From Rhodopirellula sp. SM50 (GTDB lineage: Bacteria > Planctomycetota > Planctomycetia > Pirellulales > Pirellulaceae), in assembly GCF_002289565.1 (NCBI RefSeq), contig NZ_NTFY01000027.1:1-55039 (forward strand): a DNA stretch of 55,039 nt, given 5' to 3'. Below, in pieces: positions 14,138-17,904 of the stretch (positions are counted from its first letter, which is position 1; each line of letters begins with the position of its first letter). A program made the position numbers and the translations under genes. Below the pieces are notes generated by a model that ran no database searches, had not been told where the DNA came from, and was given only the letters and a program-made list of their open reading frames with translations.

Positions 14138-14274
14138 GTGAATCCTGCAGGGTCGCTGGCGTCGCATCGCGGCCGTCACGCCAGCGGCGTGCCACAAACC
14201 AAGCTTGGGGTCGCGGTAGCGCACCTCAAGTCCCGGCCACCACCTAGCCGCCAACCCCAACGGGTTGAACACGA
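14138..14274. repeat. Hairpin array, partial left unit
   Basis: This has only the right half of the repeat unit described for 14935-15222: a GTCACGCCAGCGGCGTG triloop hairpin, the CTTGGGGT...ACCTCAAG stem and the closing AACCCCAACGGGTT hairpin, which has lost one G. It marks the left edge of the array. Confidence 0.8.
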
Positions 14275-14310
14275 CGGCGCGATCCCATCGCCGTTCGCGC
14301 CGGCCGCCCC

Positions 14311-14559
14311 TTGTTGAACCCCGTTGGGGTTCCGTGCCATGATTGGCACCCCCCCGGGGTGCGCTGTCGCGACCCCGGGCTGTGTTGTTGCACCGCTCCG
14401 CGGTGTGACGCCGACGGCGTCATCGATCATCACCCCAACAAACCGTCTGCGTCGCAACCGTCACGCCAACGGCGTGCCACATCCAAGCTTGGGGTCGCGG
14501 TAGCGCACCTCAAGTCCCGGCGACCACCTGGCCGCCAACCCCAACGGGGTTGAACACGA
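14311..14559. repeat. Hairpin array unit 1 (type 1, decayed)
   Basis: It opens with the type 1 hairpin GAACCCCGTTGGGGTTC and closes with AACCCCAACGGGGTT. The middle hairpins built on GGCCCGTCACGGGCGC and AACCGCGTCGCGGTT are missing or degenerate (about 14420-14460), so this copy is about 40 bp shorter than the others. It is preceded by a type 1 spacer (14275-14310, GGCGCGATCCCATCGCCG). Confidence 0.85.
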
Positions 14560-14610
14560 CGCACCCGCCGAGTCACCGCCGCCGGTCGCGCCGCACGACC
14601 ATTTCGCGTC

Positions 14611-14899
14611 GTTGTTGAACGCCGCTGGCGTTCCGGTCCCGTTGCGTGCATCACCCGGGGTGCGCTCCGCGACCCCGGGCTGTGTTGTTGCACCGCTCCG
14701 CGGTGTGACGCCAACCGCGTCGCGGGAATGGACAATCACCGGCGCTGTTCCCCAGGCCCGTCACGGGCGCCCGATGATCCGGCCAACCGCATCGCGGTTC
14801 CACGCCACCGGCGTGTCACAACAAAGCTTGGGGTCGCGATAGCGCACCCCAAGTTCCAGTCGCCCCCGGACCGCCAACCCCAACGGGGTTGAACACGAT
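14611..14899. repeat. Hairpin array unit 2 (type 2)
   Basis: It opens with the type 2 hairpin GAACGCCGCTGGCGTTC, where one C-G pair of type 1 has become G-C on the opposite arms, keeping the stem intact. It then carries the same string of hairpins as unit 3 and closes with AACCCCAACGGGGTT. It is preceded by the type 2 spacer (14560-14610, CCGGTCGCGCCGCACGA). Confidence 0.87.
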
Positions 14900-14934
14900 G
14901 GCGCGATCCCATCGCCGTTCGCGCCGGCCGCCCC

Positions 14935-15222
14935 TTGTTGAACCCCGTTGGGGTTCCGTGCCATGATTGGCAATCTACCCGGGGTGCGCTCCGCGACCCC
15001 GGGCTGTGATGTTCCACCGCTCTGCGGTGTGACGCCGACGGCGTCGCGGGAATGGACAATCACCGGCGCTGTTCCCCAGGCCCGTCACGGGCGCGCGATG
15101 ATCCGGCCAACCGCGTCGCGGTTCCACGCCAGCGGCGTGTCACAACAAAACTTGGGGTCGCGCTAGCGCACCCCAAGTCCCACCCACCTCCAGGCCGCCA
15201 ACCCCAACGGGGTTGAACACGA
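14935..15222. repeat. Hairpin array unit 3 (type 1, best preserved)
   Basis: Nine hairpins follow each other: GAACCCC-GTT-GGGGTTC (14940-14956); CCCGGGGT with ACCCCGGG around a 10-base loop (14978-15003); CACCGC-TCT-GCGGTG (15015-15029); GACGCC-GAC-GGCGTC (15031-15045); GCCCG-TCA-CGGGC (15080-15092); AACCGC-GTC-GCGGTT (15109-15123); CACGCC-AGC-GGCGTG (15125-15139); CTTGGGG with CCCCAAG (15151-15177); AACCCC-AAC-GGGGTT (15200-15214). Seven of the nine have 3-base loops. First and last are reverse complements, so the unit has terminal inverted repeats. Confidence 0.9.
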
Positions 15223-15250
15223 TTCGACACCCCCAAACTGGCATTTTTTT

Positions 15251-15278
15251 TTGCGGAAGACGCCGCTGATGCTATACA
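15251..15278 (+). promoter_or_regulatory. Candidate promoter of the Y1 transposase
   Basis: TTGCGG (15251-15256) and TATACA (15273-15278) are separated by 16 bases and follow a run of nine T. They lie about 60 bases before the GTG start. Each box matches the sigma-70 consensus only partly. Confidence 0.35.
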
Positions 15279-15338
15279 GATCAATCAAATGGAATCTGTG
15301 GCGGTTGGATCACATGAGAAATCACCGGAGGCGATCAA

Positions 15339-15791
15339 GTGGGGCAATCGCTGGTTCAAATCTACGTCCACCTCATCTATTCGACGAAAAGCCGAAGGCC
15401 CTTCTTGAAGGACCCCGAATTTCGGCAACGACTGTTCGCGTACAAAGCCGGGATCTGTAACAAACAAGGTTGCCCGGCTGTGATCATTGGTGGAGTCGAA
15501 GACCACGTTCACCTGCTCTGTCGGCTCGGCAAGACAATCGACATCGCCAAATTCGTCCAGTCTCTCAAACGCCCGAGCAGTGATTGGATCAAGGAAGAAT
15601 CGTCCATCAGGAATTTCTATTGGCAAACGGGCTATGGCGCGTTTTCGATCAGCCCCGGACACGTCGATGGATTGACGGAGTACATCCGCGACCAGGAGCT
15701 TCATCATCGTAAAGAATCCTTCCAAGACGAGTTTCGGAGGATTTGTAAACGCTACCACATTGAAATCGACGAGCGGTACGTCTGGGATTGA
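15339..15791 (+). CDS. Y1 (IS200/RAYT-like) transposase inside hairpin array
   Basis: A 150-residue single-domain HUH tyrosine transposase. The HUH motif is H56-V-H58 in GGVEDHVHLLCRL. The candidate catalytic tyrosine is Y115 in TEYIRDQELHHRKESFQDEF, and the family block WQTGYGAFSIS covers 95-105. Such enzymes cut and join single-stranded DNA at short hairpins; IS200/IS605 TnpA moves an insertion sequence, while RAYTs act on dispersed REP palindromes. Here the gene is bracketed by units of a hairpin array rather than by one simple left and right end, which favours the RAYT-like reading (inferred). The GTG start is supported by GGAGG seven bases upstream. Length is near the family norm and no key residue is missing, so it may be active. 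Confidence 0.9.
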   Translation: MGQSLVQIYVHLIYSTKSRRPFLKDPEFRQRLFAYKAGICNKQGCPAVIIGGVEDHVHLLCRLGKTIDIAKFVQSLKRPSSDWIKEESSIRNFYWQTGYGAFSISPGHVDGLTEYIRDQELHHRKESFQDEFRRICKRYHIEIDERYVWD

Positions 15792-15849
15792 AAACGGTGC
15801 GCCCCCCCGATTCCCCTACGCCGGTCGCGCTGCACGATTATCTCGCGTC

Positions 15850-16134
15850 GTTGTTGAACGCCGCTGGCGTTCCATTCCCGTTTTGTCCATCACCCGGGGT
15901 GCGCTCCGCGCCCCCGGGCTGTGTTGTTGCACCGCTCTGCGGTGCGACGCCGATGGCGTCGCGGGAATGGACAATCACCGGCGCTGTTCCCCAGGCCCGT
16001 CACGGGCGCCCGATGATCCGGCCAACCGCGTCGCGGTTCCACGCCAACGGCGTGCCACAACAAAGCTTGGGGTCGCGATAGCGCACCCCAAGTTCCGCCC
16101 ACCTCCAGGCCGCCAACCCCAACGGGGTTGAACA
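15850..16134. repeat. Hairpin array unit 4 (type 2), right of transposase
   Basis: It opens with the type 2 hairpin GAACGCCGCTGGCGTTC and the type 2 spacer (about 15800-15849, GCCGGTCGCGCTGCACGA), carries the full set of hairpins and closes with AACCCCAACGGGGTT. It ends four bases before the stop codon of the AAA+ ATPase on the other strand. The series type 1, type 2, type 1, transposase, type 2 keeps the alternation. Confidence 0.87.
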
Positions 16135-16137
16135 TGC

Positions 16138-17904
16138 CTACAACGCCTCTTCCTCACCTGCGGGGAGTTCCAACACGGGCTCGCCCCAGTCGGCGAGAAA
16201 CATTTCGCCACAGGCTTCGCACTTCACTTCGGTCCCCAAGCATTGATCGTCGATGACTTGCGGGATGCCCTTGCACTCGACACGCACCTTGCCCGGTTCG
16301 GCCGCCATGGCTTTGAGGTGCATCGGATCCACACCCGCCACTTCGATGTCCTCCGGCTGGAGCGTCGTGAGCAACTCACGCGTCACGTCTTCGGCCGTCG
16401 CGATGCGATTGGCCAATCGACGAACGCTCCGTTCCAGGCTGTTGCGGGATGTCCGTCCGTTGCCGAAGTGTCGATCGCGACTGGCGTACAAGTAGGTGAA
16501 TCCGCGCAGCAGTCGACGACGTGATTCGGTCGGCAAGGTGTACTTCGATTTCTTGGCGAGCAATTCAAAGATCCGGCACAGCGCTTCGGGCGAATAGTCC
16601 GAGAACTGCATCGTGGTTCCGACGCGGCTGCTGAGCCCTGGATTGCTGCGAATCATTTGCCGCATTTCGACGGGATAACCGGCCAGGATGACGACCAGTC
16701 GGTCGCGTTGATCTTCCATGCGTTTGAGCAATGTCTGGATCGCTTCGCGGCCGTACTGGTCTTGGCCGCTCTCGTCGATCAACGTATAGGCTTCGTCGAT
16801 AAACAGGACACCGTCGAGCGCTTCATCGATCTTGGTGTTGGTTTTGGGACCGGTCTGCCCGGCGTATTCGGCAACCAATCCGCTTCGATCGGTTTCCACC
16901 AAGTGGCCTTTTTCCAAAATGCCTAGCGCCCCGTAGATCTCGGCAATGATCCGGGCCACCGTCGTCTTTCCGGTTCCCGGGTTGCCGACAAAGGCCATGT
17001 GCAAACTGGGACGCGAGGTCGGCAGATCCAGCTCTTTGCGGCGACGTTCCATCGCCAAAAAATTGGTCAACGTCGTGATCTGATCTTTAATATTCTCCAG
17101 CCCGATCAGACTGTCCAGCTTGGCCTTGGCGTCGGCCAATCGCTGCTCGGGGGTCCGCTCGTCGATCGGCGGATCGCCACTGGAGCGTTCCACCGGCTTG
17201 GCCACGCCGACGCGCCCCCCCGCACCTCCGCCCGGACCGGCAACCGGAGTCGGTTTCTCGGCGGCAGTCGGACCGACACCTTCTCGCAGCCGCTTGGCTT
17301 CTTCGCGCAACCACCTCAGGGCGTCGCGGGCGTTGGACGTGTCGGTCTCGCTGACCAAGGTTTCCGGCGCGCGGCCGCGGGCGAGATCGAACTGCTGTTT
17401 CATCGACTCGATGCGTTCGTTGTCCGACGCGCTGACCGTTCCGTCGACCGACGTCAACAGGGTTGCCATCCGCATGGCCAATGTTTCCAACTCGCCCCAG
17501 TGGCCGCGGAGTTCCGGCAGTTCGGCGAACGGACGCACCAGGTCCGACCACTGGAAGTCATCCGCCGCGTTGATCAGCCAATCGACGGCTTCGTGCAGTT
17601 GGCTGCCCAGCACCGATTTGCCCCAAATGTGTTCCAGCAACACGCGGCCGAGTTGCCGCTGTTCCAGATTCTTGGCACTCGCATCGGGCACCACGGTCGC
17701 AAACACTTTCATCAAGAACCCCTGATGCAGCTCATTCATCTGCTCTGCGAGCGACGCCGCATCGGGATCGTCGCCACCGCCCAACCAGCCGTAGGATCCA
17801 CGCACCAATTTCCCCCCTTCGATGTACAGGGCTTGCGTCTCCGCGAGGGTTTCGCGATAGAGCCGGATGGATTCGATGATCCTGTCGTCGCTAGGTCGTG
17901 ACAT
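16138..17904 (-). CDS. CbbX/SpoVK-like AAA+ ATPase with TerB-like N-terminus
   Basis: A 588-residue AAA+ protein. Residues about 1-180 are helical; the stretch LATLLTSVDGTVSASDNERI (about 145-165) resembles TerB-like domains. A glycine-rich linker (about 215-240) leads to the AAA domain: Walker A GNPGTGKT (307-314), Walker B VLFIDEAY with D370/E371, sensor block ILAGYPVEM, and an arginine-finger region SNPGLSSRVG. This fits the CbbX/SpoVK/EccA group, which remodels protein complexes. After about 545 a short cysteine-bearing tail (CLGTEVKCEACGEMF) suggests a zinc ribbon, though the cysteines are few. It lies 28 bp behind the MOSC gene, probably in one operon. Its target is unknown; neither Rubisco nor a type VII secretion gene is near. 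Confidence 0.85.
   Translation of the reverse strand: MSRPSDDRIIESIRLYRETLAETQALYIEGGKLVRGSYGWLGGGDDPDAASLAEQMNELHQGFLMKVFATVVPDASAKNLEQRQLGRVLLEHIWGKSVLGSQLHEAVDWLINAADDFQWSDLVRPFAELPELRGHWGELETLAMRMATLLTSVDGTVSASDNERIESMKQQFDLARGRAPETLVSETDTSNARDALRWLREEAKRLREGVGPTAAEKPTPVAGPGGGAGGRVGVAKPVERSSGDPPIDERTPEQRLADAKAKLDSLIGLENIKDQITTLTNFLAMERRRKELDLPTSRPSLHMAFVGNPGTGKTTVARIIAEIYGALGILEKGHLVETDRSGLVAEYAGQTGPKTNTKIDEALDGVLFIDEAYTLIDESGQDQYGREAIQTLLKRMEDQRDRLVVILAGYPVEMRQMIRSNPGLSSRVGTTMQFSDYSPEALCRIFELLAKKSKYTLPTESRRRLLRGFTYLYASRDRHFGNGRTSRNSLERSVRRLANRIATAEDVTRELLTTLQPEDIEVAGVDPMHLKAMAAEPGKVRVECKGIPQVIDDQCLGTEVKCEACGEMFLADWGEPVLELPAGEEEAL

Follow-up and report, generated by a model that had tools for sequence, protein, structure and literature searches.

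Inverted three-hairpin ends at subclass 1.2-type Y1 genes: a probable REPtron-like single-strand DNA element system in Rhodopirellula

The window analysed here covers positions 1 to 55,039 of contig NZ_NTFY01000027.1 of Rhodopirellula sp. SM50, in which the gene for a 150-residue Y1 HUH protein lies within an array of small hairpins. We found that the gene belongs to an element with a left end (LE) and a right end (RE), in the order LE-gene-RE, and that gene-less LE-RE elements stand in tandem in the window and also occur dispersed. Related Y1 genes in several phyla are flanked by inverted hairpins, and this hairpin module tracks Y1 genes of the TnpAY1 subclass 1.2 type and not IS200-type Y1 genes. 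The window probably represents a single-strand DNA element system resembling a REPtron (REP, repetitive extragenic palindrome), run by a Y1 HUH enzyme with subclass 1.2 motifs and equipped with composite ends. We infer that the enzyme acts on the hairpin ends.

Inverted hairpin stems at subclass 1.2-type Y1 genes

Y1 loci were picked by their protein and not by hairpins; 54 came from the genome of the window and its relatives, and a contig scan supplied 80 named loci (the best 80 of 581 confirmed). Shared stems were counted at 130 of the 134 loci, the other four having too little flanking sequence. The two flanks of the gene shared an inverted hairpin stem at 108 of the 130 loci compared with 8 of 453 control positions taken from those loci, the latter being unmatched for intergenic location, for which IS200-type Y1 genes are the better control. 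Shared stems were observed at 48/54 loci of this and related genomes, 15/17 named loci of Planctomycetota, 18/18 of Verrucomicrobiota, 20/28 of Bacteroidota, 3/4 of Acidobacteriota, 1/2 of Hydrogenedentota, and at the single loci of Calditrichota, Deltaproteobacteria, and Armatimonadota; they were absent from two loci of Sumerlaeota, one of Kiritimatiellota, and one unassigned locus. When partners were shuffled between loci, the 110 of 125 observed in an earlier count compared with a mean of 29.9 and a maximum of 41 (200 shuffles). Across the 54 loci, the density of hairpins with a stem of at least 6 bp was 5.6 per kb up to 300 bp from the gene, as against about 1.1-1.2 per kb beyond 1 kb; the density of single loci within 1 kb ranged from 12 to 0 per kb.

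The specificity of the module was assessed with 20 weaker Y1 hits from the same phylum. Shared stems were present at 1 of 15 IS200-type genes, which were typed by motif only, at all four distant cousins of the Y---Q--HH kind, and not at one degenerate gene. The distant Y1 proteins of loci L342, L343, L344, and L352, three of them with Y---Q--HH, gave an empty DHxH search and had shared flanking hairpins. Another genome (G042) holds four near-identical IS200-type Y1 genes (L333-L336), unlike the diverged subclass 1.2 genes.

The window protein scored 85 bits against Pfam Y1_Tnp, 59.8 bits against the NCBIfam IS200 model (cut-off 55), and 22.3 bits against the NCBIfam model NF047646 for REP-associated tyrosine transposases (RAYT), which is under the cut-off of 80. 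Its DHVH, WQ, and YIRDQELHH form the subclass 1.2 motif set, an assignment made by motif only. Identity as a class 2 RAYT was ruled out because the protein has YIRDQELHH instead of Y---NP and falls short of the RAYT model. Among the 54 loci of this and related genomes, Y---Q--HH was present in all and WQxGY in 52. By sequence, the IS608 transposase is among the nearest solved chains, along with several others such as that of ISDra2; the matches stop at residue 120-125, and the C-terminal part beyond is without a solved counterpart among them. The motifs, length, and C-terminal extension are like those of TnpAY1 subclass 1.2, for which Table 1 of Quentin et al. (2018; PMC6006769) gives DH[IV]H, WQ, Y---Q--HH, about 148-150 residues, and a C-terminal extension.

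Across the loci, the module reads outward from the gene as a short hairpin, 20-25 nt, a long hairpin (with an 8 bp stem in many families), 11-13 nt starting with CT[AG], and a second short hairpin. A gene-side gap of 20-28 nt was found at 70/175 long hairpins near genes and at 6/137 control long hairpins, and an outer gap of 9-15 nt at 90/181 and 8/137, respectively. CT[AG] lay outward of the nearest long hairpin in 72/140 cases and inward in 19/140, compared with 16/274 control ends. On the other strand the outward CT[AG] is a YAG at the 5' foot of the hairpin, extended to the full GTAG in only some loci. REP enzymes use GTAG at the hairpin foot as a guide and cleave at CT (PMC8266576, in the part available).

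The array, its dispersed copies and its history in the genus

Tandem hairpin units of about 290-325 bp each span positions about 14160 to 16134 of the window. With the gene cassette removed, the array contains 23 perfect hairpins (stem at least 6 bp, 3-nt loop), compared with a mean of 1.0 and a maximum of 5 in 200 dinucleotide shuffles; hairpin units of about 290-330 bp, the starting point of the initial annotation, are thus real. The nine hairpins that it allowed per unit were also recovered, in the unit starting at 14564, where two of them are long with larger loops and a weak hairpin at 14584-14600 would make ten. Its description of a unit with terminal inverted repeats was in part revised, each unit being a pair of inverted three-hairpin ends. 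The array is a head-to-tail series of short elements, each with an LE and an inverted, related but non-identical RE; every end comprises three hairpins in the order short-long-short. Three LE-spacer-RE elements are followed by LE-gene-RE and then by a solo LE. The gaps within the modules, taken from coordinates, measure 20-21 nt and 11-12 nt. As single strands, LE4 (over 15125-15215) and RE4 (over 15856-15944) each fold into three hairpins, with z of -4.8 and -5.7, respectively. Two spacer forms alternate, as had been noted at the outset: the spacers at 14268 and 14892 are 98% identical, and the spacer at 14553 (type 2) matches the sequence 3' of the Y1 gene at 81% identity (shuffles: mean 0.59, max 0.66). 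Given the latter resemblance, units without the gene look like versions of the gene-bearing unit shortened by internal deletion. By eye, the gene cassette, first described as lying at a unit junction, occupies the point where gene-less units run from the LE directly into the spacer.

Table 1. Positions of the ends, genes and repeat-family matches of the array within the window
Feature	Position	Strand	Description
LE1	14177..14267	+	short hairpin 14177-14191, long 14204-14230, short 14252-14267
RE1	14316..14421	+	short hairpin 14316-14332, long 14352-14379, short 14391-14405, extra hairpin 14407-14421
Acido-Lenti-1 match in RE1	14353-14405		28.4 bits (cut-off 37)
LE2	14462..14552	+	left end
RE2	14617..14721	+	Acido-Lenti-1 match 14654-14705, 28.3 bits
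RE-LE joint	14722..14784	+	alike in three joints of the array; differs in most sister species, close in G009
LE3	14785..14891	+	has extra hairpin 14785-14799
RE3	14940..15045	+	Acido-Lenti-1 match 14978-15029, 26.1 bits
LE4	15109..15215	+	upstream end of gene-bearing element
Gene cassette	15223..15795	+	missing from gene-less units (by eye and spacer comparison)
Y1 HUH protein gene	15339..15791	+	150 residues, GTG start, DHVH / WQTGY / YIRDQELHH
RE4	15856..15960	+	downstream end of gene-bearing element; Acido-Lenti-1 match 15893-15944, 21.9 bits
LE5	16024..16130	+	solo end closing the array, a few bp before the AAA ATPase open reading frame
AAA ATPase open reading frame	16138-17904	-	neighbour of the array

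The genome of the window has four Y1 genes of the subclass 1.2 type, and by eye each of the other three lies inside a small-hairpin array with different stems. Related ends also lie dispersed elsewhere in the genome, beyond the view of the initial annotation. Ends of the window family were located at 16 other places, some of them single arms or fragments, and dispersed copies were found for the C99 and C46 families as well (three of the four families were searched, C68 not among them). Y1 genes within one genome shared at most 73% identity over 39 pairs, and 6-mer stems were common to 3 of these 39 among the fetched loci; between genomes, stem sharing fell from 89% of pairs at a protein identity of at least 80% down to 10% below 40%. 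Within a genome, each Y1 gene has module stems that are nearly its own. REP enzymes, in the available passages of a survey (PMC6006769), each have their own REP family.

Five species of the genus keep the Y1 gene and array beside the same AAA gene. The number of units and the joint sequence vary between species, and joints are alike within species (0.84 vs 0.59 between). The ratio dN/dS (nonsynonymous to synonymous substitutions) of the Y1 gene is 0.03-0.09 among the five. Trees of the Y1 and AAA genes conflict: dS between genomes G000 and G009 is 0.10 for Y1 and 0.36 for AAA, a conflict that suggests exchange at the Y1 locus. An extra LE-type arm is found in the Y1 leader of G009 and G004 (L084, L083) and in neither G000 nor G007, and here too the gene trees conflict. 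G005, in which the PEP-CTERM and AAA genes are adjacent with no array between them, was considered as the original empty site; loss is likelier because the AAA tree nests G005 with the array-bearing G006. By eye, a short remnant-like match remains in G005. The L020 element is present in G000 and G009, is represented by its right half in G007, and is absent from G004, G005, and G006, where other repeats occupy the gap.

An ordinary IS200 insertion into the array was rejected on two grounds: the gene and its array have the same neighbour in five species, and each of the four Y1 genes of the genome lies in an array of its own. The same conservation runs counter to the outcome that the initial annotation had set against its own idea, an ordinary insertion sequence (IS) missing from the arrays of sister strains.

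Acido-Lenti-1 and its association with Y1 genes

The module overlaps a family that Rfam types as 'Gene; sRNA' (small RNA). The 46-nt model of Acido-Lenti-1 (RF01687) takes in the long hairpin together with the gap and the outer short hairpin that follow it; Weinberg et al. (2010; PMC2864571, in its available part) tabulated the family as a candidate RNA found in Acidobacteria and Lentisphaerae. In the window the model matches the four REs at 21.9-28.4 bits, below the gathering cut-off; scores reach 50.4 bits beside other Y1 genes and 64.1 bits for dispersed copies in relatives.

Presence of the repeat follows presence of the gene. Among 60 genomes (this one and relatives), RF01687 was found in 31 of 34 with a strong Y1 hit (E at most 1e-20) and in 5 of 26 without (both, Y1 only, repeat only, neither: 31/3/5/21); 14 control genomes had no match. 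Among 246 genomes of the phylum, a set overlapping slightly with the first, it was found in 54 of 61 with Y1 (E at most 1e-8) and in 9 of 185 without (54/7/9/176); relatedness is ignored in all these counts and in the Fisher values (7e-37 and 1.5e-8). The initial annotation had named wide occurrence of the units in genomes lacking a related Y1 protein as an outcome against its idea; for the Acido-Lenti-1 repeat this does not hold, as it is infrequent in Y1-less genomes of the phylum (9/185). RF01687 adjoined Y1 in 14 of 20 new loci (20 of 28 were given, by a size limit), 7 of them above the cut-off and the rest weaker (E at most 0.1), and stood on both sides of the gene in mirror orientation in nine of the 20. 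In other phyla it adjoined Y1 in 8 of 10 loci chosen by size, above the cut-off in two; the downstream match at L155 and L212 was not mirror-oriented.

Two further arrangements of the repeat were seen. On contigs 591, 91, and 12 of G021 the matches follow one another in direct tandem at spacings of about 70-90 bp or more, in contrast to the inverted pairs. In G173 and G203 several matches lie right at the start of contigs, suggesting that the repeats cause breaks in assemblies and that copies are undercounted. The Rfam candidates scored per genome were capped (84 in the set of 60 genomes, 23 in the set of 246), so that copy numbers are lower bounds.

Gene-less elements were read in one genome, G029, at 20 regions with RF01687 matches, one being the Y1 locus and two being cut by contig ends. 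Most regions hold inverted pairs, with little-conserved spacers and at unrelated sites. For covariation, modules were chosen only by half of the long hairpin plus CT, and all 41 rows were kept, including 5 that look like chance matches. The outer hairpin was of the type GTCCC/GGGAC in 15, GCCGC/GCGGC in 10, GCCAC/GTGGC in 3, and GCTGC/GCAGC in 1; 179 of 205 cells paired, compared with a shuffled mean of 137 and a maximum of 155 (1000 shuffles). A script called 14 pairs, 13 of them asymmetric; the pair at L240 was excluded as spurious, both calls falling on one hairpin. In 12 of the 13 complete pairs, L252 being the exception, one end is of the GTCCC type and the other of the GC type, so that left and right ends are distinct. 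At the Y1 locus of G029 itself (L246, the same gene as L137), a GTCCC-type outer hairpin lies upstream and, by eye, an apparently shortened GC-type end downstream.

Interpretation and comparison with known systems

In a REPtron-like system, which we consider the probable nature of the window, the enzyme would bind the folded single strand, and a YAG, often at the foot of the long hairpin, would pick CT cleavage sites as in REP enzymes. The enzyme would then cut and rejoin, allowing gene-less elements to move or multiply in trans. The tandem array would grow and become uniform within a species by unit duplication or exchange, and the Y1 gene itself would move rarely.

Several observations weigh against such a system. 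At the level of the module, strict full modules were recovered in 43 of 134 loci, 12 of these having one on each side of the gene; gene-side gaps peak again at 9-14 nt (53/175), which comes from modules in the opposite orientation; and the four REs of the window have CAG at the foot of the long hairpin, the LEs having AAG or AAA and not YAG, so that the guide step is only partly supported in the window. At the level of the association, 8 of 28 Bacteroidota loci are without a shared stem, the 15 IS200-type controls include several near-identical copies, the Rfam match is missing from 7 of 61 Y1 genomes, and 9 of 63 genomes with a match have no Y1 hit. Neither at L020 nor elsewhere did we find a clean insertion paired with an empty site. 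Furthermore, by eye, 9 of the 15 dispersed window-family places that were read lie inside an element bounded by terminal inverted repeats (TIR), with inverted ends of about 22 bp near GGGACGTCAATTGTATTACTGA (both ends seen at L005-L010 and L024, one end at L025 and L027); another transposase may therefore have spread these copies. The TIR element looks as if it were a miniature inverted-repeat transposable element (MITE) of another transposase that had picked up a hairpin pair. An element with similar inverted ends and other contents was seen at L029, with an LE fragment just outside it.

A wider proposal can be put forward tentatively, as one that may well prove wrong: Y1 enzymes with Y---Q--HH might run a third single-stranded DNA system, neither IS200 nor REP/RAYT, with distinct three-hairpin ends mobilised in trans by the resident gene in many phyla, Acido-Lenti-1 being its footprint.

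An unlikely alternative to the REPtron-like reading is that the element is an autonomous IS200-type IS with unusually complex ends, LE-gene-RE transposing as a whole and the gene-less copies being MITE-like derivatives by internal deletion. In its favour, a defined LE and RE enclose the gene, the spacer of type 2 resembles the gene's 3' flank, genomes hold up to 11 Y1 hits, and the ends are distinct in 12 of 13 elements. Against this, the Y1 genes of one genome have diverged too far (at most 73% identity) to be recent copies, the gene of the window has remained at a single locus in five species and is under strong constraint, and IS200-type Y1 genes of the same phylum behave differently, with four near-identical copies in one genome and shared stems at 1 of 15.

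It is improbable that the hairpins are not enzyme substrates and act as RNA, for instance in terminating or regulating the Y1 mRNA. The sRNA listing of Acido-Lenti-1 in Rfam favours such a role, and IS200-type genes carry regulatory hairpins. Yet many copies are inverted gene-less pairs away from Y1, genomes with the repeat are mostly those with a Y1 gene, and the matches on both flanks (9 loci) are mirror-oriented, so both cannot be sense in one transcript. In a last alternative, the repeats would stem from host recombination and an unrelated TIR element, the Y1 gene having entered the array by chance. This would account for the likeness of joints within species and for the 9/15 places inside the TIR element and may still hold for part of the dispersal, but is highly improbable given the differing arrays around all four Y1 genes of the genome and the inverted shared stems at 108/130 Y1 genes.

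The REPtron-like reading offers candidate substrates for a Y1 branch described in 2018 as REP-less. An Rfam sRNA family may be part of a DNA element end and, if so, the annotation of many genomes changes. Several enzyme-hairpin pairs within single genomes form a natural set for studying how an enzyme recognises its own hairpins.

A literature search with these hairpin sequences gave no match, and literature on RAYT, REP, IS200, subclass 1.2, and Acido-Lenti-1, covered as titles and abstract openings with few subscription papers, held no hairpin modules for subclass 1.2. The available passages of the 2018 survey describe subclass 1.2 as having no REP and a low copy number and as occurring mostly in Cyanobacteria and Bacteroidetes, whereas we saw hairpin modules beside the gene in Planctomycetota, Verrucomicrobiota, Bacteroidota, Acidobacteriota, and others (PMC6006769). 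We read the shared inverted stems at subclass 1.2-type genes as a correction to the published description and not as an exclusion from the subclass. TnpAY1 class 3, as described in the same passages, is similar in occurring in Planctomycetes and Acidobacteria and in having genes flanked by several atypical hairpins with many genomic copies, but it has Y----Q, 178 residues, and a CnGA foot (PMC6006769). In Rhodopirellula baltica, Y1 genes with flanking repeats and GTAG REP families are known (Di Nocera et al., 2013; PMC3733652), which makes the bare association less novel; three-hairpin ends and the subclass 1.2 link are undescribed in the passages available from that paper. Acido-Lenti-1 is annotated as an sRNA, whereas in our data it behaves like a component of a DNA end module.

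The window protein resembles IS200/IS605 transposases in being near that of IS608 by sequence and in passing the NCBIfam IS200 cut-off; the system differs in its three hairpins per end, where IS200/IS605 elements have a simple subterminal hairpin, and in a gene that is not in near-identical copies among the examined loci. With REPtrons it shares a low-copy conserved HUH Y1 enzyme and near-private hairpin repeats beside the gene that are dispersed as inverted pairs; the REPtron trait of an enzyme gene lying between repeats of its own hairpin family, with further copies dispersed, is what we found, dispersal having been searched for in three of the four families. The long hairpin of 8 bp with a 3-4 nt loop in many module families is like the REP of S. 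maltophilia, and the short 5-bp hairpins resemble the Marinomonas REP (PMC8266576, in the part available). The YAG at the hairpin foot in about half of the cases resembles GTAG. The guess of a planctomycete REP/RAYT system, the best of the three in the initial annotation, therefore stands as to its REP/RAYT-like character, which near-private stems, dispersed copies, and a repeat that tracks the gene all fit, and falls as to the rest, the system being neither limited to planctomycetes nor a classical RAYT. The system differs from REPtrons in having Y---Q--HH and not Y---NP, composite ends of three hairpins, an LE unlike the RE, and a tag reduced to YAG or missing.

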